Source: an uncultured Sulfolobales archaeon
GTDB taxonomy: Archaea; Thermoproteota; Thermoprotei_A; Sulfolobales; NBVN01
DNA: 34,681 nt
Direction of reading: 5' to 3'
Assembly: GCA_938045815.1 (NCBI GenBank)
Contig: CALIBI010000043.1
Location: forward strand, 1-34,681
In this document: in pieces, positions 6,806-34,681 of the stretch
How the letters are laid out: the number at the start of each line of letters is the position of its first letter
How positions within the stretch are numbered: position 1 is the first letter of the stretch
Translations under genes and position numbers: made by a program
The notes under the pieces: model-generated
Database searches by the model: none
Told to the model about the DNA's origin: nothing
What the model saw: only the letters and a program-made list of their open reading frames with translations

Positions 6806-8218
6806 TCATATCAGCGGGAATCTGATACTTGGCTCAACGCAGATGCCTGTTCTGCTAAACAGTTCTGAAGACCTTAATTCTACTTCTCTCAAGACCTTAT
6901 CCTCATCTAACGTAAGTACGTTTCTGTTCCTCATAATTATCTTCCCATCAACTATGACGTCTTGGACGTGTGAACCGTTAGCAGCGAACACTAAGTGTGA
7001 TATAGGGTCGTTCATAGGCATGAGTTTAGGGTCCCAGTACTTAATCGTTATTAAGTCTGCGCGTTTACCTACCTCGATAGAACCCACTCTGCTTGAGAGA
7101 CCTAACGCTTCAGCACCTCTCAGAGTAGCCATCTCGAGCACGTCTTCGGCTCTCAGAGCTTCGGGATTACCCTTATACGCGTTCTGGAGTATCGTAGCGA
7201 TATGCATTTCCTCTATTAAGTCGTAGTTGTCGTTGCTGGGTCCGCCGTCAGTACCTAGAGTCACGTTAACTCCTGCTTGAAGCATGTCTGAGACTCTAGC
7301 TATTCCTGAACCAAGCTTACCGTTACTAGATGGGTTATGACTCACGTTAGTTTTAGTCTCAGCTAGAGTTTTTATTTCTTCATCAGTAACCCAAACAACG
7401 TGAACGAGAACTACGTTAGGTCCCGTAAGACCTAACCACTTAACGAAGTCTACGGGCTTCATACTGAATGTCTTGGTGGTGTATTCGACGTCCTCTCTAA
7501 CCTCAGCTAAGTGCATAGTGATCCCGGTCTTAAGTTCCTTAGCTCTCGCAGCTATCTCCCTATAGAGCTCCACACTCACAGCTCCAGGTGTTCTAGGACC
7601 GAACCACACATATATCCTCCCGTCCCTCCCGTGATACTTATTGTAGAGTCTCAGAGTATCACTCATGCTGGTCTCGCCATCTTCTACGAGACCCTCGTGC
7701 AGAGCTCCTTTCTCTAAAGCATATCCACTCATATCCATCACGTGTCTTGCTACAGCTGCTCTAAGCCCTGACTTAAGTATAGTATCTATTATGTTATCGG
7801 GTCCGTACCTCCCAACAAGACCTGTTTCTAGGAATGTTGTTGTTCCTGATTTTATTAGTTCAAGGGTAGTTAAGGTTGCTGAAGCGAGTGCTTCCTCCTG
7901 AGTCATGCTTCCTTGAAGAGGCCAGACACACTCCTTAAGCCAGGAAATTAATTTCCTGTAGTTAGCGCAAGCCTTAAGCATCCCCTGAACTAGGTGTACG
8001 TGCGTGTTAATTAGTCCAGGCATCACGATATGCTTATCAGCATTTATTTCTTCGTTAGCTCTCCCCCTAAAATCTTTATCAAGATCTGAGCATTTACCCA
8101 CAGCTACTATCTCCCCGCCCTCAATAGCTACGCAACCATCTTTCAAAACCTCTCTTCTTTTATTCATAGTTATTACAAACTTACCCCTAACGTATATGTC
8201 TACCAAATAATCACCCAT
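6806..8218 (-). CDS. 5-methylthioadenosine/S-adenosylhomocysteine deaminase family amidohydrolase
   Basis: A 470-residue amidohydrolase of the MtaD/SsnA/TrzA group. Visible metal and catalytic residues: His73-x-His75 in PGLINTHVHL, His236 and Glu239 in MHLAE, His273 in LVHVVW, the SHNPSSN segment near 293-299, and Asp324 in LGTDGG. Family members deaminate methylthioadenosine, S-adenosylhomocysteine or adenosine to the inosine analogue. The YGPDN, FGPRTPG and SSNGKLGSGIA segments agree with the MtaD subgroup. It is divergent from adenine deaminase across 60 bp, so the two probably form a purine salvage pair. Other deaminases of the family (guanine, cytosine) have different loops and are less likely. 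Confidence 0.88.
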   Translation of the reverse strand: MGDYLVDIYVRGKFVITMNKRREVLKDGCVAIEGGEIVAVGKCSDLDKDFRGRANEEINADKHIVMPGLINTHVHLVQGMLKACANYRKLISWLKECVWPLQGSMTQEEALASATLTTLELIKSGTTTFLETGLVGRYGPDNIIDTILKSGLRAAVARHVMDMSGYALEKGALHEGLVEDGETSMSDTLRLYNKYHGRDGRIYVWFGPRTPGAVSVELYREIAARAKELKTGITMHLAEVREDVEYTTKTFSMKPVDFVKWLGLTGPNVVLVHVVWVTDEEIKTLAETKTNVSHNPSSNGKLGSGIARVSDMLQAGVNVTLGTDGGPSNDNYDLIEEMHIATILQNAYKGNPEALRAEDVLEMATLRGAEALGLSSRVGSIEVGKRADLITIKYWDPKLMPMNDPISHLVFAANGSHVQDVIVDGKIIMRNRNVLTLDEDKVLREVELRSSELFSRTGICVEPSIRFPLI

Positions 8219-8278
8219 GTTAAAACTGGTATGTTTATTAATATTTATTAATTAATTGAATTAAACTAAAAATTAAGA
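8219..8278. promoter_or_regulatory. Divergent AT-rich promoter region, MTA/SAH deaminase / adenine deaminase
   Basis: A 60-bp gap, strongly AT-rich. AATATTTATT at about 8240-8249 reads as a TATA-like element on either strand. The predicted plus-strand start point near 8269 leaves a very short leader before the adenine deaminase start. Confidence 0.45.
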
Positions 8279-10108
8279 GTGTTAATTATGCTGACAAGCA
8301 AGTTGTTAAGAAGAGAAAACAACTTAAAAGAGTTGAGAGGCATAGTCCTAGCCGCGAGAGGTGAGCTAAAATCAGATATCATTATAAGGAATGCTAACCT
8401 GGTTGACGTGATATTAGGTGATATAAGAGAGAAGATAAACATAGCTGTGTGGCGTAATTATGTGGTGAGGGTGGGTTACTTCGATACAGACAAGTATAGC
8501 GGTCCTAACACCCTAATCATTGATGCTTCCTCCAGCGAAGTAGTTACGCCGGGTTTTATAGATCCTCATGTACATATTGAGTCTTCACTACTCAGAGTAA
8601 CTGAGTTTGGTAAGCTAGCACTCATGAACGGCACGACAACGGTTGCTGCAGATCCTCACGAAATAGCTAACGTATTAGGTATTGAGGGGGTTAAAGCATT
8701 CATTGAGGAATCTAAGTACACACCACTTAGGCTATTCTTTTACGCACCGTCCTGCGTCCCGCCAGTCAAGTCAGGACTTACTAAAGGTTCTGAGATAACA
8801 CTCAACGAGGTGCGAGAACTCCTCAACTATAAGGAGGTTATTGGTTTAGGGGAAGTCATGGATTTCCTCTCAACAATCAGTGGCGATGAGGAGATACTTG
8901 AGAAAATATCTTTTACGCTGTCTCTAGGTAAGGTAGTTGATGGTCACGCACCTCAATTACCTGAAGATATGCTAGTCCCGTACGCTGCTGTAGGGATTAG
9001 AGGAGATCACGAGTCTGTCTTCATGGATGAAGCTTTAAGTAAGTTGAGAAGCGGTATGAGGATACTAATAAGGGAAGGGAGTGCTTGGAGAGATTTAGAA
9101 GAACTCTCCAAGATGCTTACTTACATGAAAATAAACACCAGGTACCTAAGCTTCTCGAGCGACGACTTAGAAGTTGTAGACTTGGTTGAGTCAGGACACA
9201 TGAACAGAATACTGAAGAAGGCTGTTTCGCTAGGGATAGATCCCATCACTGCGGTTCAGATGGCTACTATAAACGCTGCGGAGTATCTAGGTATTAGTGA
9301 GTTGGGTTCTATCACGCCGGGGAGGCTAGCAGACATAGTAATATTGAAGAACTTTAGATCATTCCAGGTGCAGGCGGTAATAGTTAATGGAGAGCTAGTA
9401 GTTAGTAATGGTCAGTACCTAGGTACTACGAGAAATTACGAATACCCTAAACACTTCTACGAGACTGTAAAGACTGGGAAGGTATTTGTTCCAGAAGATT
9501 TCAGGATAAAGATTCCTAAGAAACACGGTCACGTTAAGTACTTAACCATAAGAGCTGTTTTAGGTAAAGCGATAACGAAGGCCGAAGTTGATGAGTTTCC
9601 AGTAATAGACGGCTACCTCACGTTACCGCCCCAAACAGATCACTCGTACGTAGCAGTAATAGATAGACACCACTCTACAGGTAGGTTAGGGTTAGGAGTA
9701 GTTAAGGGTTTAGGGATTCTCAGAGGGGCCATAGCTCAAACAATAGCTCACGATGTCCATAACATAATAGTTATTGGTAAATCACCTGAGGAAATGAGCT
9801 TAGCAGTAAAGGAAGTAACTAGAGTTGGTGGAGGAATAGTGTCGGTCCTTAATGACAGAGTTTTAGGATTAGTTGAATTACCTATTGCTGGTCTAATATC
9901 GGATAAATCGTTTGAGGAAGTCTACGCGAGTGTTAAGAACTTCACGAAAGCGTGCGAGTATCTGGGATTAAACTTCCACGCAGCTTTCATGACAATCTCA
10001 CTACTCCCACTCCCCGTAATACCTGAACTCAGAATAACTGAGCACGGAGTTTTTGACGTGATGCGCGGAACTCTAGTAAGCCCGATTCTGGATGTCGTAG
10101 GTGGTTGA
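8279..10108 (+). CDS. ade: Adenine deaminase
   Basis: About 609 residues, the usual length for Ade. The enzyme deaminates adenine to hypoxanthine and ammonia with an Fe/Mn binuclear site. Visible features: the PGFIDPHVHIESS motif with His97 and His99, the AADPHEIANV segment, GLGEVMDF (Glu ligand), DGHAPQ, GDHES, and the SDD segment (catalytic Asp region). A C-terminal Ade-specific domain follows with TDHSYVAVIDRHH and SLLPLPVIPELRIT. Candidate starts are GTG 8279 and ATG 8288, with no clear ribosome-binding site for either. The downstream amidohydrolase overlaps its end, so they are likely co-transcribed. Confidence 0.95.
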   Translation: MLIMLTSKLLRRENNLKELRGIVLAARGELKSDIIIRNANLVDVILGDIREKINIAVWRNYVVRVGYFDTDKYSGPNTLIIDASSSEVVTPGFIDPHVHIESSLLRVTEFGKLALMNGTTTVAADPHEIANVLGIEGVKAFIEESKYTPLRLFFYAPSCVPPVKSGLTKGSEITLNEVRELLNYKEVIGLGEVMDFLSTISGDEEILEKISFTLSLGKVVDGHAPQLPEDMLVPYAAVGIRGDHESVFMDEALSKLRSGMRILIREGSAWRDLEELSKMLTYMKINTRYLSFSSDDLEVVDLVESGHMNRILKKAVSLGIDPITAVQMATINAAEYLGISELGSITPGRLADIVILKNFRSFQVQAVIVNGELVVSNGQYLGTTRNYEYPKHFYETVKTGKVFVPEDFRIKIPKKHGHVKYLTIRAVLGKAITKAEVDEFPVIDGYLTLPPQTDHSYVAVIDRHHSTGRLGLGVVKGLGILRGAIAQTIAHDVHNIIVIGKSPEEMSLAVKEVTRVGGGIVSVLNDRVLGLVELPIAGLISDKSFEEVYASVKNFTKACEYLGLNFHAAFMTISLLPLPVIPELRITEHGVFDVMRGTLVSPILDVVGG

Positions 10109-10112
10109 GATA

Positions 10113-11459
10113 ATGCTGATCAAAAATATCAAGTTACTTACAGGCAGTAACGAATTAACTGAAGCCTCCTTAATAATCGAAGATGGGAAAATTGCCGGGA
10201 TCAAGAAAGCTACAACACCAAGTAATTACGATGAAGTACTGGATGGAGGAGGACTCATAGCCCTGCCTGGAGGGATAGATATTCATGCACATATCCACGA
10301 CCCTCAGTACCTGCATCACGAAGACTTCAGGAGTGGTAGTGAAGCTGCCTTATACGGTGGCGTAACAACGCTATTTGATATGCCGTTGAGAGTATACGTA
10401 GAAGACGAGAAAACTTTCAAGATAAAATATGAGGCAGGCTTGAAAGACTCCCTAGTGAATTTCGGCATAATAGCTGGGATGATGAATGAAGACAATGTGT
10501 CTTCAGTAAAGCTACTTCAGTCCCTAGGTATTAACTTATTTAAAGTCTTTACCTGTAAGCCTTTCAGACCTAGGAGCGACGGGGGGTTTACTAAGGTTAT
10601 GAGTTCAGTTGTTGGTAGTGGGGGTGTTCTCATAGTTCATGCTGAAGACGACATAATAGCAGAGTATCTGACGGTAGAGTTTAAGAGTTCCGGGAGCAAC
10701 GAGCCTATATCTTATCATGAGTCACGCCCAGCATTAGCTGAAGCTATAGCTATAAGGAGAGTAGCTGAGGTAGCTAAGTTTTTAGGTTTCAAGAAAGGCG
10801 TACACATAGCGCACCTCTCTTCTGCTGAGGGGTTGCGTGAAGTTGTTAGAGCTCGCTTAGAAGGGGTCAACTTAACTGTAGAGACAACCCCACACCACCT
10901 TTACTTCACTAAGGAGGATGTCTTGAGGCTAGGCAACTACCTCAAGCTTGCTCCCACCCTTAAGAGCCGTGATGACGTGAGAGTTTTATGGGAAGGTCTT
11001 TCCTCAGGTTCTGTGGACGTAGTAGCGTCTGATAACGCGCCCTCAACTAGGTCTGAGAAGGAGGTCGGTACGTGGGATGCTTGGGGAGGTATACCAAACC
11101 TAGAGGTCATGTTACCACTAGTTTTCACTTTAGGTGTCAAGAAGCTGAGTATCATGACTCTAGAAAGGTATGTAGAGGTTACGTCTAGGAATCCAGCTAA
11201 GATAGCAGGTATTTACCCGCGTAAGGGAGTGCTAAGCATAGGCTCTGACGCAGACATAGTGTTAATCGACCCTAACTACTGCTTTAACGTGACAGCAGAC
11301 AAGCTCCATCATAAAGTCGACTGGACCCCCTTCGAAGGGCTTGAGTTATGCGGTTGGCCGCGTCACGTAATAATCAATGGTCAGCTAGTCATGAGAGATA
11401 GGGAAGTAATTCTTCAGAACTTCAGAGGCTCTTACGTGTTTTTATCTCCTCAAGCTTGA
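10113..11459 (+). CDS. Cyclic amidohydrolase, dihydroorotase/allantoinase-like
   Basis: About 448 residues of the dihydroorotase/allantoinase/hydantoinase branch of the amidohydrolases. Visible: PGGIDIHAHIHDP with the two metal-binding His (58 and 60 from ATG 10113), a probable carbamylated Lys144 in LFKVFTC, VHAEDD (His ligand), HIAHLSS (His ligand), VETTPHHLYF, and the Asp in VVASDNAPS. The family usually has SDHAP; here the His is Asn. The nominal frame starts at GTG 10101 inside ade. GTAGGTGG at 10097-10104 lies 8 nt before ATG 10113, which I prefer. Dihydroorotase (pyrimidine synthesis) is the likelier archaeal role, but the purine-salvage context leaves a hydantoinase or allantoinase activity open. 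Confidence 0.78.
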   Translation: MLIKNIKLLTGSNELTEASLIIEDGKIAGIKKATTPSNYDEVLDGGGLIALPGGIDIHAHIHDPQYLHHEDFRSGSEAALYGGVTTLFDMPLRVYVEDEKTFKIKYEAGLKDSLVNFGIIAGMMNEDNVSSVKLLQSLGINLFKVFTCKPFRPRSDGGFTKVMSSVVGSGGVLIVHAEDDIIAEYLTVEFKSSGSNEPISYHESRPALAEAIAIRRVAEVAKFLGFKKGVHIAHLSSAEGLREVVRARLEGVNLTVETTPHHLYFTKEDVLRLGNYLKLAPTLKSRDDVRVLWEGLSSGSVDVVASDNAPSTRSEKEVGTWDAWGGIPNLEVMLPLVFTLGVKKLSIMTLERYVEVTSRNPAKIAGIYPRKGVLSIGSDADIVLIDPNYCFNVTADKLHHKVDWTPFEGLELCGWPRHVIINGQLVMRDREVILQNFRGSYVFLSPQA

Positions 11460-14878: not shown

Positions 14879-16765
14879 CTAACCCGGTAGTAGTCCTTCT
14901 TCCTCTAATCTGTAGGCTAACCACTTAAGGTCTAGTTCCTCGAGTTTTGCTTTAGTAGGGCGCCCGTCTATCCACCCTCTCACACCGTAGTACTCGTCGA
15001 GCATCTCATCAAGCTTTACTACATATCCTTTGCTCGCTCCTTCAGGCATAGGTTCTTCTAGGAGTCTCTTAGGTAGTGTGTCGTAGGCTCTGCCATCACC
15101 GAATGATAATATGTTGAAGACTCTCTCAGCGTTATATATTCTCTCACCTATTTTCTCGAGGTCTTTACTTGTGAACTCAGCTCCTGTTACGGCTGTTAGT
15201 AACTTAGCGTAGTCATCAGCCCATATCGCGAACGAACTGAACTTACAGAGAACTAACGAGTCTATGACGGCGAAGATGTCTTGGAAGTGCTTAACTAGAG
15301 CGCCCTTACCTTTAGTAGAGAATCTATCAACTAGTTCTGGAACCCCGAGAATCTCAGGAGATATTAGGTAAGCTCTCAAGTGGCAACCACCTCTGTTACT
15401 GGTTGCGTATGCTAATCCATGCCCCTGAACTCCTCTTGGGTCATAAGCAGGTAATTCCTGCCCTCTAACAACCATAGCTAATTCTGGCACCCCGTATTTA
15501 GTAGCTAGTCTTAGAGCACCCTCAGCTAAGTCATCACCTATACCTGACCTGTATGCGGTGCGCCAAACCAACTCTACTATAGCTTCCGGAGTACCCCATT
15601 TAGCGTTAAGACCTCTCAGCTTTTCTGGTGGTATCTTACCCTTCTCAACTAGCTCCATGAACGTACCTATAGTGTGACCCGTAGATATACCGTCAAGACC
15701 TAACTCATTACATAGGTAATGTGCCTTACTTATCGCTTCTATATCATCAGTTCCTGTTTGAGCACCGAAAGCCCACACAGTCTCGTATTCTGGGCCACCT
15801 CCCTCACCACTGAAGGGTGATTTGGTGATCCTCGTGTATCGGGCGCAACCTATCGGGCAACCCCAACATATCTCCTCCTTGTATTTTTCCCAGTCCATAT
15901 ACTTCTCAGTTACTACCTCACCGCTCGTTTTGTCTGCGGTGGGGAAGTATCCTGACTGGAAATTGCGTGTAGGATAAACTCCTGCTTTGTTAATTATGTT
16001 AACTAAGACTGCTGTTCCATACTTAGGTAGTGCTTCTGAGGTTATTGGACTCTTCTTATGCTTATCCATAGATTCTATAACTGCTTCTCTAAAGAGCTCC
16101 GGCTTAGCTACCTTAGGTTTCTCACGACCTAACGCAGCTATAGCTTTTATCTTCTTGGAACCCCACACAGCACCGTGTCCTCCTCTGCCAGCCGCCCTAG
16201 CTTTATCGTTCAGTAGTGCTGCTATCCTGACTAAGTTTTCTCCAGCCGGACCTATAGCCAGCACCTTGATATTCTTAGCATCATCACCGACCTCAGCCTT
16301 AAGTTCCTCCTTAATAAGATCTGTCGTCGCGTGAACATCCTTACCCCACAAATGCTTCGCACACCTAATCTCTACCTTCCCGTCACGCACCCACAAGTAA
16401 ACAGGGTCCTCAGCAGCATCCTCCAAGATCACGCCATCAAAACCCGCAAACTTTAGTTCGGGACCGAACTTACCACCACTCTGAGCATCATGTATTGTGT
16501 TCGTTAACGGAGACTTAGTTACGGAACACCACCTACCAGAGGTGGGAACACCTGAAACACCGGTTAGAGGTCCTGTCATAACGTAGGCTTTGTTGGCAGG
16601 AGATAAAGGATCTACTCTAGGATCTATTTCTTTGAGAGCTAGGTAAACACCGAGACCTCTACCACCTAACCACTTCTTAAGAATCTCCTCAGGAGGGAAC
16701 TCGTACCTGATGCTACCGGACCTAAGATTAACTCTTGCTAATCTACCCATGTAGCCTCCTAACAT
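14879..16765 (-). CDS. Tungsten-containing aldehyde:ferredoxin oxidoreductase (AOR2, canonical type)
   Basis: A 628-residue protein close in plan to Pyrococcus AOR. Visible: a GRLARVNLRSG start region, WLGGRGLG (32-39), GPLTG (65-69), TKSPLTNTIHDAQSGGKFG (pterin region), IGPAGENLVR, AAGRGGHGAVWGSKK, the cluster motif CWGCPIGC with Cys300, Cys303 and Cys307, GPEYETVWAFG (324-334), a YATSNRGGCHLRAY segment, and Cys507 in DSLVLCKF as the fourth cluster ligand. It oxidises aldehydes with ferredoxin in the cytoplasm. ATG 16765 has AGGTG about 6 nt upstream and matches the family N-terminus; ATG 16750 after GGAGG is an alternative. The divergent neighbour is the probable AOR radical-SAM maturase. 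Confidence 0.95.
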   Translation of the reverse strand: MLGGYMGRLARVNLRSGSIRYEFPPEEILKKWLGGRGLGVYLALKEIDPRVDPLSPANKAYVMTGPLTGVSGVPTSGRWCSVTKSPLTNTIHDAQSGGKFGPELKFAGFDGVILEDAAEDPVYLWVRDGKVEIRCAKHLWGKDVHATTDLIKEELKAEVGDDAKNIKVLAIGPAGENLVRIAALLNDKARAAGRGGHGAVWGSKKIKAIAALGREKPKVAKPELFREAVIESMDKHKKSPITSEALPKYGTAVLVNIINKAGVYPTRNFQSGYFPTADKTSGEVVTEKYMDWEKYKEEICWGCPIGCARYTRITKSPFSGEGGGPEYETVWAFGAQTGTDDIEAISKAHYLCNELGLDGISTGHTIGTFMELVEKGKIPPEKLRGLNAKWGTPEAIVELVWRTAYRSGIGDDLAEGALRLATKYGVPELAMVVRGQELPAYDPRGVQGHGLAYATSNRGGCHLRAYLISPEILGVPELVDRFSTKGKGALVKHFQDIFAVIDSLVLCKFSSFAIWADDYAKLLTAVTGAEFTSKDLEKIGERIYNAERVFNILSFGDGRAYDTLPKRLLEEPMPEGASKGYVVKLDEMLDEYYGVRGWIDGRPTKAKLEELDLKWLAYRLEEEGLLPG

Positions 16766-26978: not shown

Positions 26979-28289
26979 TCAGTTATTCTCGCATAACAGA
27001 TACTCTAGCGGTACGTACACGTAGCCAGTCCCGTAGTTAATCTCGTAGAAAAACTCGTAAAGAGACCTTTCAAGAACCCACGCTTTAATAGACTTAATAA
27101 ATAATTCTTTATCGTCGAGTCCTTGGATATCGCGTAGACTCACACTCCCTAAATATTCCTCTAGTAGAGCGCCGAAGACTCTGTCCTGCCACAATAAAGC
27201 TTCTTTCCTCAAGTCATCTTCTTTGAGGAAATCCCGAAATACTTCCTCTAATTTCTTCTTACTGACCTCAGCGTAAGCAAACATTGTTATGTAGTGAAGA
27301 GACCTCAGTAAGCAGGCGAGATCTCTTGACGCGGTCTCTAAGAGCGATCTTCTTACCTCAGTTCTGCCAGGCTCTCCCTCAAAATCTATCAGTATGAAGT
27401 CCTTGCCATCATAGAGTGTCTGAGCTAGGTGTAGGTCGCCGTGAGTCCTGATAAGTCTTAAACCCCGCAATCCTTTGAGACTCCTCTCTAGCTTGCTCAG
27501 TGAGTCATCTATTAAGTGGGTTACGTTCATCTTCAATTTCTCAGCTAGCCTCATTACGGATTCCTTAGCTCTAATCTCCTGTTGTCTCAGGTCACTCAAC
27601 CACACGTTAATTACTTCATCTGTTGCTTCCTTAGGTGAACACCACTCCTCATCACATAAATTCATTGTTTTATGGAATGACGCGACTACGTAACCTAGTT
27701 TACGCGCCTTAGCTTCTATATCACCGTACTCTCCGCTCTCGAAGTATTTGAGAGCGCTGAGGTAGAAAGGCATGCCACCATCTCCTAGAGATTCTATGTA
27801 TTTAGTCATTACGGCAACTACTACATTACCTAAGGAAGCCTCTAAGACTAATTCAGGTGAGTAAGGAAATTTCTTTCTGGTTAGATATCTGAGGAACTTA
27901 GGCTCGCTCAACTCAGGAGAGAACGTCCTATAACCCTTCAAAACGTACCTGCTATTACCTACTTCCACTACAGAAATCACGTTAGTCCATGCTGTAGGTA
28001 ATGGCTTAACCATGAAACGACCTTCAGGAATCTCGCAATACCTCCTAACCTTAAGTAAGCTTTCACTACTCATTAAGTTCTCAATATATTCTGCAGTGTA
28101 TTCCGCCTCAACATACTCACCCTTTCTAACTACTACCGGGGCGAAAACTTGCTGTGACCCGATTCTAACGAGGAGTCCTCTTAAATTTGCTCCTAAATTG
28201 ATGGTGATAACCTCATTTGGTAGCGCTCCCTTAGAAGGGTACCACCTCCTACTCATGACCCACTCGATGAGTTCGTTACTACAGCACAC
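26979..28289 (-). CDS. Maltokinase/glucosamine kinase-like protein (APH fold)
   Basis: A 436-residue sugar kinase-like protein. The N-terminal cap carries the RRWYPSKG motif. The kinase C-lobe shows IRTHGDLHLAQTL (catalytic Asp region) and IDFEGEPGR (metal-binding Asp), then the TASRDLACLLRSLHY stretch, all characteristic of maltokinase-type (Mak/Pep2) proteins. Bacterial Mak makes maltose 1-phosphate for GlgE, and related enzymes phosphorylate glucosamine. No GlgE is visible here, so the acceptor is unknown. It diverges from the GH57 gene over about 100 bp, which supports an alpha-glucan role. The start is GTG 28289 with AGGTGGTG upstream. Confidence 0.83.
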   Translation of the reverse strand: MCCSNELIEWVMSRRWYPSKGALPNEVITINLGANLRGLLVRIGSQQVFAPVVVRKGEYVEAEYTAEYIENLMSSESLLKVRRYCEIPEGRFMVKPLPTAWTNVISVVEVGNSRYVLKGYRTFSPELSEPKFLRYLTRKKFPYSPELVLEASLGNVVVAVMTKYIESLGDGGMPFYLSALKYFESGEYGDIEAKARKLGYVVASFHKTMNLCDEEWCSPKEATDEVINVWLSDLRQQEIRAKESVMRLAEKLKMNVTHLIDDSLSKLERSLKGLRGLRLIRTHGDLHLAQTLYDGKDFILIDFEGEPGRTEVRRSLLETASRDLACLLRSLHYITMFAYAEVSKKKLEEVFRDFLKEDDLRKEALLWQDRVFGALLEEYLGSVSLRDIQGLDDKELFIKSIKAWVLERSLYEFFYEINYGTGYVYVPLEYLLCENN

Positions 28290-28320
28290 TATCTCAACAC
28301 CACCTAAATAAACTACTCAT

Positions 28321-28332
28321 GAAATATAATTC
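28321..28332. promoter_or_regulatory. Shared TATA-like element, maltokinase-like / GH57 genes
   Basis: GAAATATAATTC is near-palindromic and fits both strands. Predicted start points are near 28302 (minus, just before AGGTGGTG) and near 28352 (plus). It overlaps the earliest ATG (28319) of the GH57 frame, which argues against that start. Confidence 0.4.
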
Positions 28333-28390
28333 CGGTGTAAGTAGTTTGAGTGTGGTTGGTGGTGCGGGTGTCTCAGAACGTTCAAGTGTT

Positions 28391-30259
28391 ATGGAGAAGA
28401 AACCTATCTTCATATTCGTTATTCATTTTCACCAGCCTGTAGGTCAGTTAAGTAAGGTTCTTGAAAGACTTTTCGAGAATAGCTATAAGCCCCTAATGAA
28501 TACCCTCCTGAAGTATCGTGTTCCAGTAGCTCTTCATTTCTCAGGTCCTCTGCTCCTTTACGCTAAAGATCACTATCCTGACTTCCTAGAAATGATTAGG
28601 AGAGCTGGTGACTCGGGATTCCCTGAATTCGTAGGTGGTGCTTACTCTGAAGCTATACTTCCTCTAATACCTATCGAGGACAGAACTGAGCAGGTTAGGA
28701 AGTATAATGAACTTTTCCGGAGACTAGTTGGTGATTATCCTCTCAGAGGTTTCTGGCTTCCTGAGAGATTCTGGGACCAAACAATACCTTCAATAATCAG
28801 TAAGTTCGGGTATGAGTACGTTTTCGTTGATGACCAACTACTCTACATGAAGGGGCTGAAATGGGGTGACAGTAAGTACTTATGGTTAACGGAAGACTCG
28901 GGCAAGCCCGTCAAGATCTTCTTTATAGATACCGAGATAAGGTACAAGTTGCCCTGGTCCCCAGTACCTGAAGTTATTGAATACATATCTAAGATCTCTG
29001 ATCTAGAAGGATACCCATACGTTTTATGGGGTAGTGACGCGGAGAAATTCGGTGAGTGGAAGCCTTGGGATGTTACTGGTAAGTGGCTTGAAGAATTTCT
29101 TCAAGTCTCAGCAACTAGCAACAAATACTATGTTTTGAGACCCAGAGATTACTTGAGGCTAGGTGTGGTTAGAGGTCTCACGTACCTACCTCACGGGAGC
29201 TACGACAAAATGATGGAGTGGAGTGAAGGGCTAATATGGAATTTCCTGACTAAGTATAGTGAATCCAACAACATGCATAAGAAGCTCATACACGTCAGGG
29301 GTAAGGTGCTTGAAGCTGAGGCTTCCAGTAATTCTAGACTTGAGGACGCTTGGGACTATATCCACCTAGCTGAATGTAATGACGTGTATTGGCACGGCTT
29401 ATTTGGCGGGACATACATACATCACTTAAGAGCCGAGGTTTACAGAAACTTAATAAGAGCTGAGAATATAGCGGATAAGGTGCTAAGAAGTTACGGCGTT
29501 AAGAAGAAGGATTTCGATTTTGACGGATTAGATGAGGTTCTGATAGAGAGGGAGTTACTTAACGCTTACGTGAAACCTTCTGATGGGGGCACGCTCTTCG
29601 AGCTAGACTACAGAGAGTACGGGAAAGAAGGTAACTTAGTTAACGTTATGTCGAGATATCCTGAGAAGTACTTGAGTGACGTACCATACTATACTCACGA
29701 CACATATAGGAGGGCATCATTCAGAGACTTCATAGTTAAGAACTTAGCTAGTCTAAGAGAATGGGTGAGTAGAGGTGGGGGCTATACCTCAGAAAACTTA
29801 GTAATGATCTCTAACTACGTGATAACTAAGCTAGGAGAATCTAGCGTAGTCATAACATCTAGTATTGACAACCTCAAGATCGTTAAGGAGTACCAGATAA
29901 TTAATTCAACGTTGAAGACGACTTACTACTTAAGTGGTTCTTCAGGAAGTAATGAGTTACTACTTACTGAGATGGCTTTTTCTCCTTACTCACTAAACGA
30001 GTTGAGGCTTGAGGTAGGTGGGGAAGTTATTGAGACTGGTCGGTATGCAGAGACTGACGAGTTTATGGTGGTTTCTGAGAGCAACGTTCTTAAAGTAAGG
30101 TTGAGTGAGGTTGCTAGTTTGTGGAGTTGGAAGCAAGTAACGTTATCGAGAACTGAGAAGGGTGTTAAGGAGTCACAGCAAGGATTAATGATTGCTTTAG
30201 GGCTTAAAATAAAGGATCTTGCTAGAGAGTACTTCCAAATTACGCTACACGTAACTTAA
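28391..30259 (+). CDS. GH57 4-alpha-glucanotransferase/alpha-amylase
   Basis: About 622 residues from ATG 28391. GH57 motifs, numbered from the first ATG of the frame (28319): HFHQP (36-40), the FVGGAYSEA segment, the nucleophile Glu149 in FWLPERFW, the acid/base Asp240 in WGSDAEKFGEW, and AECNDVYWHGLFGG (351-364). The spacing of 91 between Glu and Asp and the NDxYWHGxFGG motif match Thermococcus litoralis 4-alpha-glucanotransferase (Glu123, Asp214). It should transfer or hydrolyse alpha-1,4-glucan segments. Homology places the start at residue 25 of the frame (ATG 28391); a leaderless GTG at 28352 is the alternative. No signal peptide is visible, so it is cytoplasmic. It diverges from the maltokinase-like gene. 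Confidence 0.92.
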   Translation: MEKKPIFIFVIHFHQPVGQLSKVLERLFENSYKPLMNTLLKYRVPVALHFSGPLLLYAKDHYPDFLEMIRRAGDSGFPEFVGGAYSEAILPLIPIEDRTEQVRKYNELFRRLVGDYPLRGFWLPERFWDQTIPSIISKFGYEYVFVDDQLLYMKGLKWGDSKYLWLTEDSGKPVKIFFIDTEIRYKLPWSPVPEVIEYISKISDLEGYPYVLWGSDAEKFGEWKPWDVTGKWLEEFLQVSATSNKYYVLRPRDYLRLGVVRGLTYLPHGSYDKMMEWSEGLIWNFLTKYSESNNMHKKLIHVRGKVLEAEASSNSRLEDAWDYIHLAECNDVYWHGLFGGTYIHHLRAEVYRNLIRAENIADKVLRSYGVKKKDFDFDGLDEVLIERELLNAYVKPSDGGTLFELDYREYGKEGNLVNVMSRYPEKYLSDVPYYTHDTYRRASFRDFIVKNLASLREWVSRGGGYTSENLVMISNYVITKLGESSVVITSSIDNLKIVKEYQIINSTLKTTYYLSGSSGSNELLLTEMAFSPYSLNELRLEVGGEVIETGRYAETDEFMVVSESNVLKVRLSEVASLWSWKQVTLSRTEKGVKESQQGLMIALGLKIKDLAREYFQITLHVT

Positions 30260-30270
30260 TAATGAGTTAG

Positions 30271-32343
30271 TCAGCAATAAATAATGAAGCCATATTCTTT
30301 GAAGAACAGCTTATCTTCAGTAACATCAACTCTCCTAGACATGACAGGGCTTAAACCACCTAGTACCTTATTAATCGAGGAAGGCTCCTCAGACACGTTA
30401 ACGATTATTAGTGCTTGGTCCGAGCTCAGATACCTACTTATTATTAGTAGGTCTCCAGCTCTACCCATACTCATTAAGCCTTTCCTCATGAGTGAGCAAT
30501 TACTTCTCACTCTAATTAGTTCCTTAATTAGCTTAAGGAGTTCCTTATCCCACATACTCTCATCCCATATCATGCCTCTCCTATTATCTGGATCCCCATC
30601 ACCGACCATCCCTATCTCATCCCCGTAATATAGTGAAGGAGAGCCAGCTAGACTAAACAAGAGCACGTAAGCGATTTCTAGTCTGAGCGGGTCCCCCAAC
30701 AGAGTCTTTACGCGTGGTGTGTCGTGCGAACCCAGCAAATTATATAGTGAGAGACTCTTGAGTGGTGAGAGTACGGAATACCTACTCATTGAGGAATTTA
30801 TGAAGTAGTTCAAGTCTGCCGTACCGTTAAGGAGCATTAAAACGTCTCTCATGAAGCCGTAATTCATGAGGGAATCGTAGCGTCCACTAGTCAGTAGTTC
30901 TTCCAGGTAAGTAGGATCACTCGTGGCTTCGCCTAAGAGCAACGCATCCCTCTTCCTAACTTCTAGTTCTTTCTTAAGCACCTCAACAAATTCTGGAGGT
31001 AGTGCCTGCCCCACATCCATTCTGAATCCGTCAACACCTACGCTTAGCCAGAAATCAATGACTTTAGACACATACTCTCTCACATAATCATTCAAGACAT
31101 TTAGTTTAGGCATGACCTTAACATTGAGAAACGTTTCGTAAGGAACATCACCCAACCTGGATATAGAGTTACGTAAATCAACACAACTAATCACACCCTC
31201 CACGAAGTCCTTAACTAACTTAACGAGAACCTCACTAGGTTCTTGATGAAAGTAGTAGAGGTCGCGATACTCTCTACTCAAGACTGCCTTAACGAATAAC
31301 TCGTTACATACTGACGTGTGATGTACTGGGAGATCAATAATAACCTTAATATTGAGTTTCTTAGCCTTACTAAGGAGTTCTTGAAAGAGTCTCAAGTCAC
31401 CTAGTTTAGGGTCTATGCTAAAGTAGTCTTCCACGTCGTATCTATGGTAAGAGGGAGACTTAAATATTGGTGTTAGGTATAGTGTCTCAACACCTAAGCT
31501 ACTAATATAGTCTAGTGAGTCAATAACCCCTTTTAAGTTCCCTCCCAAGAAGCCGTGAGGTCTTGGGGTAATACCCCACTCTAAGTAATGGTTGGCTTCA
31601 CCTACGCCAGATTTTCTGAAGCTATCAGGGAATATCAGGTAGTACGTAGTGCCTAAATACCAGGGAGATCCAGCCACTACACCACCTGAGAAACTAATGA
31701 GTTCCTCGCTACCCAAACCTTCACTACCGTACGTCAGTAATTCCCCGCTCCTCGTCTTAACAAGAAACTCGTAACGGATATTCTCAGGCGTGACTTCAGG
31801 CATGACTACCTCGTGAATGTCGTAATAACCTACGCGACCTACTTTACTTCCTCTGATGAATTTCTTCGAATTATTTACTAATACCTCAGCATAGCACTCC
31901 TCAATAATTCTTGAGTGTGTTCTAAGCCTCAATACTAGGCTGCCCTCATATATTGAGGCGTAGGACGGGTCTGCAGGTAAGTGTATCACGTGCCACGGCT
32001 TAATAGATTCGGGGTTTTCCTCACCTAACCTAGCAATAGATACTGTGACTTCGTAGTCTTTATTTTCTGGGAAGGGTCTTAAGCGAGCTTTCTCAGGGTT
32101 TTCAGGATCTAGAACGACTTCAGAGTTGTTTACTACGAAGACATAGGGGTACTCACCATCCCACACTCTAACTTCAATACTCCAGCGACTACCCTTCTTA
32201 GAAAGCCTGAAGTAGTTTGGAGCAAAGGATGTGAAGTGTGATGATAAGTAGGCATTCACATAATTCGAGTCAGGTATTGAGAAAATAACGATTAGTCTGC
32301 CATAATGTGGCCCTAGTCTCTCCCGCCCTACCACCTCGTACAT
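30271..32343 (-). CDS. GH13 alpha-glucan hydrolase (neopullulanase/cyclomaltodextrinase-like)
   Basis: A 690-residue GH13 enzyme. About 220 N-terminal residues form beta-rich domains with no signal peptide. Catalytic motifs follow: IDLPVHHTS (Asp337 to His342, region I), GFRMDVGQAL with the nucleophile Asp443 (region II), LLGEATSD with the acid/base Glu472 (region III) and LLGSHDTPR with Asp541 (region IV). YYGDEIGMVGDGDPDNRR is the typical GH13 loop after the barrel. A C-terminal beta domain ends the protein. It cleaves alpha-1,4 and perhaps alpha-1,6 bonds in maltodextrins or cyclodextrins in the cytoplasm. It converges on GH57 within 11 bp and lies downstream of a MalK-type ATPase on the same strand, which supports use of imported oligosaccharides. 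Confidence 0.9.
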   Translation of the reverse strand: MYEVVGRERLGPHYGRLIVIFSIPDSNYVNAYLSSHFTSFAPNYFRLSKKGSRWSIEVRVWDGEYPYVFVVNNSEVVLDPENPEKARLRPFPENKDYEVTVSIARLGEENPESIKPWHVIHLPADPSYASIYEGSLVLRLRTHSRIIEECYAEVLVNNSKKFIRGSKVGRVGYYDIHEVVMPEVTPENIRYEFLVKTRSGELLTYGSEGLGSEELISFSGGVVAGSPWYLGTTYYLIFPDSFRKSGVGEANHYLEWGITPRPHGFLGGNLKGVIDSLDYISSLGVETLYLTPIFKSPSYHRYDVEDYFSIDPKLGDLRLFQELLSKAKKLNIKVIIDLPVHHTSVCNELFVKAVLSREYRDLYYFHQEPSEVLVKLVKDFVEGVISCVDLRNSISRLGDVPYETFLNVKVMPKLNVLNDYVREYVSKVIDFWLSVGVDGFRMDVGQALPPEFVEVLKKELEVRKRDALLLGEATSDPTYLEELLTSGRYDSLMNYGFMRDVLMLLNGTADLNYFINSSMSRYSVLSPLKSLSLYNLLGSHDTPRVKTLLGDPLRLEIAYVLLFSLAGSPSLYYGDEIGMVGDGDPDNRRGMIWDESMWDKELLKLIKELIRVRSNCSLMRKGLMSMGRAGDLLIISRYLSSDQALIIVNVSEEPSSINKVLGGLSPVMSRRVDVTEDKLFFKEYGFIIYC

Positions 32344-32396: not shown

Positions 32397-33488
32397 CTAG
32401 ATGAGTTCTCCCGTATTAGGGTCGAAGAACTTTATTCTCTCTCTAACAAATTTTACTTTCACTTTACTCCCTATGCTGTATAGCTTGCTGCCGTGCGTCC
32501 TGCTCTTAATTATGTTATTAGATAGCTTAAGAGTTACTATGGTTTCAGAACCTAGGGGTTCTGAAACAACGACTTCAGCATCTGCGTCGTGAGACCCGTC
32601 ATCAACTAGTAAAACGTCTTCAGGCCTCACACCGAACACTACTTCCCTACCTACGTACTGTCTCAAACCACCTACTTCGGGGAGTCCTGAGAGATTAAGT
32701 ACGTAATTACCTATCCTGACCTTAGGATCGTTACTCTCTACTCTGGCATTCATGAAGTTCATTCCGGGAGATCCTATGAAGCTAGCTACGAACATGTTTT
32801 TCGGATTGCTGTATAGCTCGAGAGGCTTACCTACCTGGAAGACCTTACCGTAATTCATTACCGCTATCCTGTCAGCTAAAGTCATCGCTTCAATCTGGTC
32901 GTGCGTCACGTATATCGTGGTGACTTTGAGCTTCAATTGTAGCTTCTTTATCTCAGCTCTCATCTCGGTTCTGAGCTTAGCGTCTATGTTGCTTAACGGT
33001 TCGTCAAGAAGCCACACGTTAGGTTCTCTGACTAAAGCTCTGGCGAGCGCGACTCTCTGTTGCTGACCGCCGGAAAGCTGTGCTGGCTTCCTATTGAGTA
33101 GTTCAGAAATCTTAAGTAACTCAGCGACCTCCATAACCTTACGGTGTATATCCGCCTTACTTAGCCTTAATTCTTTCCTCCTAACCATTAAAGGAAAAGC
33201 AATATTGTCGTAGACACTCATGTGGGGGTATAGAGCGTAATTCTGGAAAACCATCGCGACATTTCTCTCCTTAGGTGTCTTATAATTCACTACAGCATCA
33301 TCGATTCTTATCTCGCCTTCTTCAGGTACTTCTAGACCAGCTATAAGTCTAAGAGTTGTTGTTTTTCCTGAACCTGAAGGACCTAACAAAACGAAAAACT
33401 CACCGTCCTCTATGTTTAGGTTGACCCTACTTACAGCCTCTACCCTACCATATTTCTTAGTCACGTTAACTAGAGAAACTCTAGACAC
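32397..33488 (-). CDS. MalK/UgpC-type ABC transporter ATP-binding protein
   Basis: A 363-residue carbohydrate (CUT1-type) ABC ATPase: Walker A GPSGSGKTT (36-44), Q-loop FQNYALYPHM, LSGGQQQRVALARAL signature, Walker B WLLDEPLSNID, switch THDQ, then a TOBE domain with FGVRPEDV and SEPLGSETIVTL. Such ATPases energise uptake of maltodextrins, other sugars or glycerol phosphate. No permease or binding protein is visible, so the partners are elsewhere or beyond the window, or the ATPase is shared among several importers, as is known for MalK/MsiK-type proteins. GTG start with GGGTG upstream. It lies downstream of a surface carbohydrate-binding-type gene and upstream of GH13. Confidence 0.92.
   Translation of the reverse strand: MSRVSLVNVTKKYGRVEAVSRVNLNIEDGEFFVLLGPSGSGKTTTLRLIAGLEVPEEGEIRIDDAVVNYKTPKERNVAMVFQNYALYPHMSVYDNIAFPLMVRRKELRLSKADIHRKVMEVAELLKISELLNRKPAQLSGGQQQRVALARALVREPNVWLLDEPLSNIDAKLRTEMRAEIKKLQLKLKVTTIYVTHDQIEAMTLADRIAVMNYGKVFQVGKPLELYSNPKNMFVASFIGSPGMNFMNARVESNDPKVRIGNYVLNLSGLPEVGGLRQYVGREVVFGVRPEDVLLVDDGSHDADAEVVVSEPLGSETIVTLKLSNNIIKSRTHGSKLYSIGSKVKVKFVRERIKFFDPNTGELI
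32542..32567. repeat. Perfect 11-bp inverted repeat inside the MalK-type gene
   Basis: GTTTCAGAACC (32542-32552) and GGTTCTGAAAC (32557-32567) are exact reverse complements around a 4-nt TAGG loop. It encodes the conserved SEPLGSET stretch of the TOBE domain, whose Ser-Glu repeats make the symmetry partly a result of codon choice. Strong hairpin potential in mRNA. Confidence 0.8.
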
Positions 33489-33558: not shown

Positions 33559-34599
33559 TTACTTCTTCTTTCTTAAGAAGACGTACCCTATGAGAATACC
33601 TAAAACTAATAGTATCACGCCAACAGCTATGGTTGTTGTCCAGTCTGTAACGTACTCTGGGACTGTTGTCGGGACTATCGTAGTGGTTGTTATTAATCTG
33701 GTTTCCGTGGTTGTGGCAGTGGTTGTGACAGTCTTAGTTACTGGTTGAGGTGGTGGTGCTGGAACCCCCTCAACCACGGCCGGAGTCCCCTCAAGTGTTC
33801 CAGGATCTACTCTGTAGGAAGTTAACATAGCGTATTGTGCTTCAGCTGTGGGTGCTAGGAGGTCTATGACTAGGGGAGCTACGCTAGCGGCGAGAGCGTA
33901 TGTATCCGCACCACCAAACTTCCACTCTTCGGCAGCTAACCCGACAGCTCTTAACTTACTTGCTTCAAAACCGTCGTAGCCGGACACCGTAACCACGTAC
34001 TTCCAGTCAGCTATGTTTTCAACATCTGCCAGTATTGAGGTACTTATTAACGCTACTATGGCGTTTAGTGAGGTGTCTGTGTAGACCGTGAAGTCTGTTT
34101 CTCCAGCCTTAGCTACTAGCGTGCCTGATGCGTCGTAAATCGCTGATACCTGACCTTGAGGTGCTGGCTCCTCACCCCACCCAGGAGTCAGTAGTACGGC
34201 GTAGTGCCAAGCGTAATCATCAGCTATAGTGACCCTCAGACCGTACGTGGAGGTATTCGTGACTCCTGAAGCAGTGGTCCTCACGTAAATCTGCACATGC
34301 TGTAAGCAGAAGCCTGCAGGACCATTCCAAGGATTACCTCCTAAGTCCCTCAAGAACACGAGCAGAGCCACGTGCGTAGAGTTCTTCATAACCATAAACC
34401 CAGTCAGGTCGAAGACCCCCGACCTAAAAACAGCATTAGTAGGGTATGTGTAGTTGCCAGTACCCTTATCATCACCTACAGGATCCGAAGCGCTAAACAC
34501 TACAACCATCGGCTCCTGAGAGTAAGCAACTCCAGCTAACAACACTGAAGTCAAAACCAAGACCAAGAGACCTAAAACACCAACAACCCTACTCAACAT
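33559..34599 (-). CDS. Surface-anchored Glucodextran_C-like carbohydrate-binding protein
   Basis: About 346 residues. A signal peptide (VVGVLGLLVLVLTSVLLAGVAYS) precedes a domain with SDPVGDDKGTGNYTYPTNAVF and NPWNGPAGFCLQHVQIY. These are the hallmark segments of the SLH-like C-terminal module of glucodextranase (Glucodextran_C), which here stands alone without any glycosidase domain. A Pro segment and a Thr-rich stalk (about 283-318, likely O-glycosylated) lead to one membrane helix (AVGVILLVLGILIGYVFL) and a terminal RKKK. It should sit outside the cell, bound to membrane or S-layer. GAGGTG (34604-34609) lies 4 nt before ATG 34599, which I prefer over TTG 34611. The MalK-type ATPase gene follows, suggesting a role in polysaccharide capture. 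Confidence 0.75.
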   Translation of the reverse strand: MLSRVVGVLGLLVLVLTSVLLAGVAYSQEPMVVVFSASDPVGDDKGTGNYTYPTNAVFRSGVFDLTGFMVMKNSTHVALLVFLRDLGGNPWNGPAGFCLQHVQIYVRTTASGVTNTSTYGLRVTIADDYAWHYAVLLTPGWGEEPAPQGQVSAIYDASGTLVAKAGETDFTVYTDTSLNAIVALISTSILADVENIADWKYVVTVSGYDGFEASKLRAVGLAAEEWKFGGADTYALAASVAPLVIDLLAPTAEAQYAMLTSYRVDPGTLEGTPAVVEGVPAPPPQPVTKTVTTTATTTETRLITTTTIVPTTVPEYVTDWTTTIAVGVILLVLGILIGYVFLRKKK

Positions 34600-34647: not shown

Positions 34648-34681
34648 TTAAGGTAAAGTTTTATAAAGGATTAAGTGAAAG

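Follow-up and report, generated by a model that had tools for sequence, protein, structure and literature searches.

The window, which is the whole 34,681-nucleotide stretch of DNA analysed, encodes a stand-alone Glucodextran_C protein (GDC) that is probably a non-catalytic, alpha-glucan-capturing surface protein of maltodextrin uptake. Part of this reading is that the protein would work like the SusE and SusF proteins, to which it shows no sequence kinship. The evidence comes from its architecture, its gene neighbourhood, its presence and absence together with starch genes within the genus, purifying selection and the conservation of a tryptophan triad. To our knowledge, little is known of how archaea living behind a surface layer collect insoluble polysaccharides before import; a compact protein of one module that recurs beside importers and keeps a conserved Trp triad open to testing offers a direct handle on that gathering, and a sister clade lacking the triad provides a natural comparison.

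Protein Architecture and Selection

Glucodextran_C (PF09985) is the sole Pfam-A family found in the protein at E ≤ 0.001, matching residues 34-266 with 238.2 bits (curated cut-off 22) over model positions 1-220 of 228. No catalytic domain, SLH domain, ABC solute-binding (SBP_bac) profile or SusE/SusF family was matched at the same threshold. Hydropathy in a 17-residue scan reaches 2.91 at residue 9 and 2.92 at residue 330, 20 residues from the end (350-residue numbering), and it is from these values that a signal and an anchor are read. The module is separated from the C-terminal hydrophobic segment by a spacer of 49 residues, 39% of which are Thr. Pfam and hydropathy thus bear out the sequence-only reading of a stalked, stand-alone protein with its own signal peptide, Thr-rich stalk and membrane anchor and no catalytic domain.

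Pfam gives the usual setting of PF09985 as the C-terminal module of glucodextranase-type enzymes, from which the window protein departs, and describes the module as SLH-like. The true SLH domain is PF00395. Glucodextran_C presumably belongs to the CBM9/DOMON beta-sandwich superfamily, the one link to it by sequence here being through 1ug9. An AlphaFold2 model made from two sequences, the window protein and its congeneric copy L004, had a mean pLDDT of 38.8, too low to be of use.

The gene most likely starts at its ATG, since the alternative TTG start, 12 bases upstream, falls within a ribosome-site-like GAGGTG stretch. The module is 86% identical to that of L004, from a Desulfurococcaceae MAG (L004 and G026:C43, both 5257 bases long, were treated as one contig), and 84% identical to that of a second congeneric copy, L057. 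The dN/dS ratios of the window copy against L004 and L057 are 0.12 and 0.16 by NG86 and 0.17 and 0.20 by YN00, and the NG86 values across the three congeneric copies span 0.11-0.16; the neighbouring genes gave NG86 values of 0.04 and 0.06 (MalK) and 0.15 and 0.13 (GH13). Together with the architecture, these low ratios indicate a real, constrained gene under purifying selection.

Gene Neighbourhood and Co-Inheritance with Starch Genes

The GDC gene heads a probable operon (Table 1). As the sequence-only reading held, a sugar ABC ATPase gene lies next to it; the product scores 433.1 with the UgpC subfamily model, barely over the cut-off of 432, and 373.6 with the MalK model, under that model's cut-off of 568. 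For the GH13 enzyme the nearest model is cyclomaltodextrinase, at 264 bits and under the cut-off of 540.

Table 1. Features at the GDC locus, in positions of the window.
Feature	Position	Strand	Remarks
Stand-alone Glucodextran_C protein	33559..34599	-	346 aa from ATG; signal-like start, module 34-266, Thr-rich spacer, C-terminal hydrophobic segment
Glucodextran_C (PF09985) module	33802..34500	-	Contains Trp91, Trp141 and Trp226
MalK/UgpC-type sugar ABC ATPase	32397..33488	-	Probable next operon gene, 70-base gap after GDC
GH13 alpha-glucan enzyme	30271..32343	-	Probable third operon gene
GH57 alpha-amylase / 4-alpha-glucanotransferase-like gene	28319..30259	+	Convergent neighbour
Maltokinase-like protein	26979..28289	-	TIGR02457, 91.6 bits, under the cut-off of 375

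The sequence-only reading had proposed looking for a permease or amylopullulanase upstream of position 34681. The window spans the entire contig G000:C43 and so ends there; in the congener G028 the gene upstream of GDC is a divergent 186-aa ORF without a Pfam match, not a permease. The genome does carry such genes elsewhere, on contig C31, where positions 7049-10414 encode a 1121-aa GH57 amylopullulanase and MalE-, MalF- and MalG-like genes come next downstream. This enzyme also bears a Glucodextran_C module, a Thr-rich spacer and a hydrophobic segment at its C-terminus. The MalE-like protein has, by eye, a hydrophobic N-terminus with a Thr-rich linker. We infer that the genes on these two contigs belong together, those of C31 being the likely partners of the GDC-malK-GH13 genes of the window. 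Published accounts give context for such loci: in the genomes treated in PMC2246101, the gene for amylopullulanase is typically found with malK on one side and the remaining mal genes on the other, and PMC11046441 reports that a Sulfolobus acidocaldarius amylopullulanase mutant could no longer grow with starch as its only carbon source.

The GDC-malK-GH13 run is kept in three of five congeneric genomes, and the amylopullulanase is present in the same three. For the other two, one of them just 81% complete, GDC, amylopullulanase (E ≤ 1e-40) and GH13 were all unmatched, and their MalE matches are short, mostly N-terminal pieces. Across the class, PF09985 occurs in 59 of 229 genomes and an amylopullulanase match (1e-40, a few partial) in 41. 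With loci mapped, 15 of these 41 carry a mal-linked stand-alone copy and 26 do not, and the latter count against a role in glucan capture. A full-length amylopullulanase match was found in 15 of 16 genomes with a mal-linked copy versus 1 of 15 with an examined copy of group P (described below).

Elsewhere in the window, two genes (176-2080 and 14879-16765) appear to be aldehyde-ferredoxin-oxidoreductase-like, as judged by eye from their translations.

Distribution of Stand-Alone Copies

The sequence-only reading had described Glucodextran_C as a C-terminal part of secreted glycosidases, which proved too narrow: in the class, 59 proteins were examined that have PF09985 but no catalytic domain that could be recognised. 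For 10 of them this status comes from Pfam, for the remainder from length and similarity, and some are cut by contig ends. These proteins were grouped by gene neighbourhood, and the groups M, N, P and O used below were defined from neighbourhood and tree, so that the group counts are partly circular. Neighbours were labelled by BLAST similarity to references, with Pfam scans in part, and gene starts are rough because gene calling took the longest ORF first. Left out of the census were a P-like copy (G020 C145), two cut-off enzyme contigs (G112 and G123) and a 24-bit match missed by the profile (G091).

Group M comprises 16 proteins from 16 genomes that adjoin amylopullulanase or malK, as single or tandem copies. 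Group N, with 20 proteins, lies in a cluster of the f4 family consisting of a phosphoesterase, a GDC protein with an additional N-terminal region, a solute-binding protein (SBP), a fused permease and an ATPase; 16 copies touch the binding-protein gene and 4 end at a contig edge on that side. The cluster is conserved at L090 (3606-13088) and 19 similar loci, the phosphoesterase was not seen beside L108 and L111, and the N-terminal part of the GDC protein is DUF4350/ABC_transp_aux-like. One further protein, L087, lies beside an opp-type SBP_bac_5 protein and a permease and was counted apart from N. Altogether 33 of the 59 (16 + 16 + 1) touch an amylopullulanase, malK or binding-protein gene, 17 of them that of another importer. 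As a rough estimate rather than a computed control, for about 1500 genes the chance that a given gene touches amylopullulanase or malK is about 0.1-0.3%.

Group P contains 15 stalked proteins (L010, L062, L063, L065-L075 and L096), 14 of them in genomes without an amylopullulanase match; 8 lie beside polB and/or an amidohydrolase gene, 6 beside glmS and/or moeA and 1 beside other genes. No importer or starch gene among the references searched adjoins any of the 15 copies, each from a different genome. The remaining seven proteins (group O) are found in other settings, and two of them adjoin MoaA genes with aldehyde ferredoxin oxidoreductase (AFOR) genes near: the stand-alone copy is next to a MoaA-type radical SAM gene at both loci, with the AFOR gene adjacent at L083 (5867-10052) and near at L086 (3267-10909).

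A sample of the phylum that overlaps the class yielded module matches in 38 of 398 genomes. All five carriers in family f38, outside the class (L138-L142), have a stand-alone copy beside amylopullulanase, with a spacer that by eye is a coiled-coil-like repeat in place of the Thr-rich one; the L141 gene is broken into two ORFs and the L142 copy runs off its contig. Family f25 has the gene in nine genomes, from which six loci were fetched and three left out; all six (L143, L145, L147, L148, L150 and L151) have an SBP_bac_5-like gene downstream, then two permeases, with a small 91-aa ORF intervening before the SBP_bac_5-like gene in two. This downstream gene shares 77-100% identity with one assigned to SBP_bac_5 by Pfam (the importer genes were identified by Pfam for L145, by similarity for the others). 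In f25 the amylopullulanase is at a different place, in the company of MalEFG but of no stand-alone copy (L144 and L146).

The module also occurs in proteins combining GH53, Big_4, Glucodextran_C, a Thr-rich spacer and a hydrophobic end, at L076 (12179-14611), L092 (7757-10183), L116 and L117. This architecture was assigned by Pfam for L076 and by similarity for the other three, and MalEFG-like genes lie near it in L076, L092 and L116.

Tryptophan Triad and Module Phylogeny

Three Trp residues of the window module, Trp91, Trp141 and Trp226, were picked as a triad after viewing the conservation in the alignment. All three are intact in 19 of 19 modules of group M, 38 of 39 enzyme modules (A), 19 of 20 of group N (one truncated), 4 of 4 GH53 modules and 4 of 4 f38 modules, that is, in 84 of these 86 modules as against 0 of 15 in group P; f25 keeps them in 5 of 6 and group O in 9 of 11. 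Departures include one amylopullulanase module (YWY), L064 (CWL) and the f25 copy L148 (LWS), which is still beside its importer. Tryptophan is typical of sugar-binding platforms, and the Gly/Pro/Trp-rich stretches of the module form a putative ligand face.

Across the 86 modules 44 columns are conserved, and 18 of them, the triad included, are kept by under half of the P copies. The lost columns cluster at 58-63, 86-95, 140-149 and 210-226, and P keeps two other conserved Trp (131 and 199). The 12 "core" positions (99% in P) are no independent control, since they were chosen as conserved in every group. P is one clade (98/95), and its loss of these columns may therefore be a single event. Group O modules keep the triad, yet L087 is the only one of them seen next to an importer, so a strict coupling of the two becomes less convincing. 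The genome of L148 (G258) has kept the importer and gave no enzyme-type match, so the triad may follow the glucan enzyme, though this is a single case.

Eight near-duplicate loci were removed before tree building, and the broken L141 gene was left out of the tree and the triad count. The mal-linked stand-alone modules form three sets, each on a starred branch: one that includes the f38 copies, the GH53 modules and L064 (100/99), one of tandem proteins of family f10 (100/99) and the three-genome clade of the window (100/100). A further starred branch (100/99) splits the first set from the other two. The window clade joins the N/O set at 94/96 (97/96 in another tree), which makes its separation from the f10 set less sure; outside its own clade, the f10 tandem proteins come nearest by path (1.06), and they too adjoin malK. 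The three sets and the starred split fit either several origins of the mal-linked copies or one old origin with frequent loss. The "5 changes" for M on the tree are inflated because the f38 copies carried a different label, and the branches of Natrinema and L149 were flagged as long.

Proposed Role and Alternative Explanations

In the reading we favour, the signal would export the GDC protein and the C-terminal segment would fix it in the membrane, while the Thr-rich stalk would raise its single module, of carbohydrate-binding type, to the height of the surface layer. In that position the module may keep alpha-glucan chains close to the stalked amylopullulanase. The MalE-like protein would bind the products of that enzyme for import by MalFG together with the MalK of the adjoining gene, and the GH13 and GH57 enzymes would complete the breakdown inside the cell. 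The surface location, the ligand and the hand-over to the importer are thus all predicted steps. SusE and SusF are surface glycan-binding lipoproteins of Bacteroides. The GDC protein resembles them in having no catalytic domain and in being encoded with starch enzyme and importer genes, and if our reading holds it would also be tethered on the surface, as predicted from the hydropathy of its two ends; it differs in having a hydrophobic segment and stalk rather than a lipid anchor, an ABC importer rather than SusCD, and no sequence kinship by Pfam. The sequence-only reading had offered either a starch-binding receptor or an anchor for an extracellular amylase. The surface-receptor half fits the neighbourhoods of the relatives; the amylase anchor was rejected as unlikely, because the amylopullulanase has its own anchor segment along with its own module and spacer.

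Some observations speak against the capture reading. By its associations the module is not confined to alpha-glucan, since it occurs also on the four GH53-type proteins and beside other importers, and 15 genomes carry stalked P copies without an adjoining importer or starch gene among those searched. One alternative, which we hold to be unlikely, is that GDC is an envelope protein whose module binds glycans of the surface layer or membrane and spaces the S-layer, unrelated to food sugar. The P copies beside polB/amidohydrolase (8) and glmS/moeA (6), with 14 of the 15 genomes lacking an amylopullulanase match, and the SLH-like description by Pfam would suit such a role. The window copy, however, has the Trp triad absent from P, sits in a malK-GH13 run, lacks an SLH domain match at E ≤ 0.001, and is unmatched jointly with GH13 and amylopullulanase in two congeners. 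Another improbable alternative is a docking or assembly subunit, in which the module would bind a protein partner, amylopullulanase or the MalE-like protein, and so join enzyme and importer. Stand-alone copies do immediately adjoin amylopullulanase or importer genes, and as the enzyme bears the same module a homotypic contact is conceivable, yet the enzyme is already equipped with a spacer and a C-terminal segment, the MalE-like protein has its own hydrophobic, Thr-rich N-terminus (by eye), and the conserved triad consists of Trp, the residue typical of sugar platforms.

In its module with the Trp triad, its Thr-rich spacer and its C-terminal segment, GDC corresponds to the C-terminus of the C31 amylopullulanase, and both proteins presumably serve the same sugar system. 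GDC might for this reason be the leftover end of a lost amylopullulanase that retained a signal and has no important role. That is very hard to reconcile with dN/dS ratios of 0.11-0.16 (NG86) or 0.17-0.20 (YN00) in three congeneric copies, with the recurrence of stand-alone copies across several families, and with a module only 39% identical to that of the genome's own enzyme and on a separate branch; the same identity and branching led us to reject a recent duplication of the enzyme module. The DOMON superfamily includes haem-binding members, and MoaA genes, with AFOR genes in the vicinity, adjoin two other stand-alone copies, so the module could bind haem or another small molecule; this we consider most improbable, as each of the four scanned relatives in which the module is fused to an enzyme is a glycosidase (GH57 in two, GH53 and GH15 in one each).

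Returning to glucan capture, a broader proposal can be made tentatively, with the odds somewhat against it: stalked, catalysis-free Glucodextran_C proteins may be general, so far undescribed archaeal "glycan catchers" serving ABC importers. Across several families of Thermoproteota, such a class would recur beside MalEFGK, f4 SBP/fused-permease and opp-type SBP_bac_5 importers, exchange Thr-rich for coiled-coil-like stalks and be, with ABC importers, the equivalent of the Sus surface proteins of Bacteroides.

Known Relatives

No study of a stand-alone Glucodextran_C protein was found in a non-exhaustive literature search that included portions of PMC6182646, PMC6037648, PMC2246101 and PMC11046441. 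The only solid solved relative by sequence is glucodextranase (PDB 1ug9/1ulv; 1.5e-10 with the single sequence, 3.3e-19 with the profile), a GH15 enzyme from Arthrobacter. Its domain C forms the terminal part of a large enzyme and has no Trp at the Trp141 position in the alignments, whereas the window protein is stand-alone. One other solved chain had a profile E below 0.001, PDB 9x81 chain A ("alpha-amylase", 311 residues; 1.3e-4 to a 14-sequence profile), whose alignment shows Trp at 91, 131, 141 and 226 and for which no publication was found; three more chains, with E of 0.5-1.3, are by their names either designed or unrelated.

A stand-alone member is already in public annotation. The "glucodextranase DOMON-like domain-containing protein" of Natrinema versiforme pNVE414 has, like the window protein, PF09985 only by Pfam, and is encoded at a locus with GH97, alpha-glucosidase, TrmB-type regulator and ABC importer genes. 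Unlike the window protein, it shows no signal or anchor by eye at its annotated start, and its triad reads RSW, with one Trp kept. The plasmid search returned 12 records, all below 60% identity, 11 from haloarchaea and 1 from Nonomuraea; nine are on GH97-annotated proteins and two are annotated "glucodextranase DOMON-like", one of these two being a 1081-aa GH15 protein.
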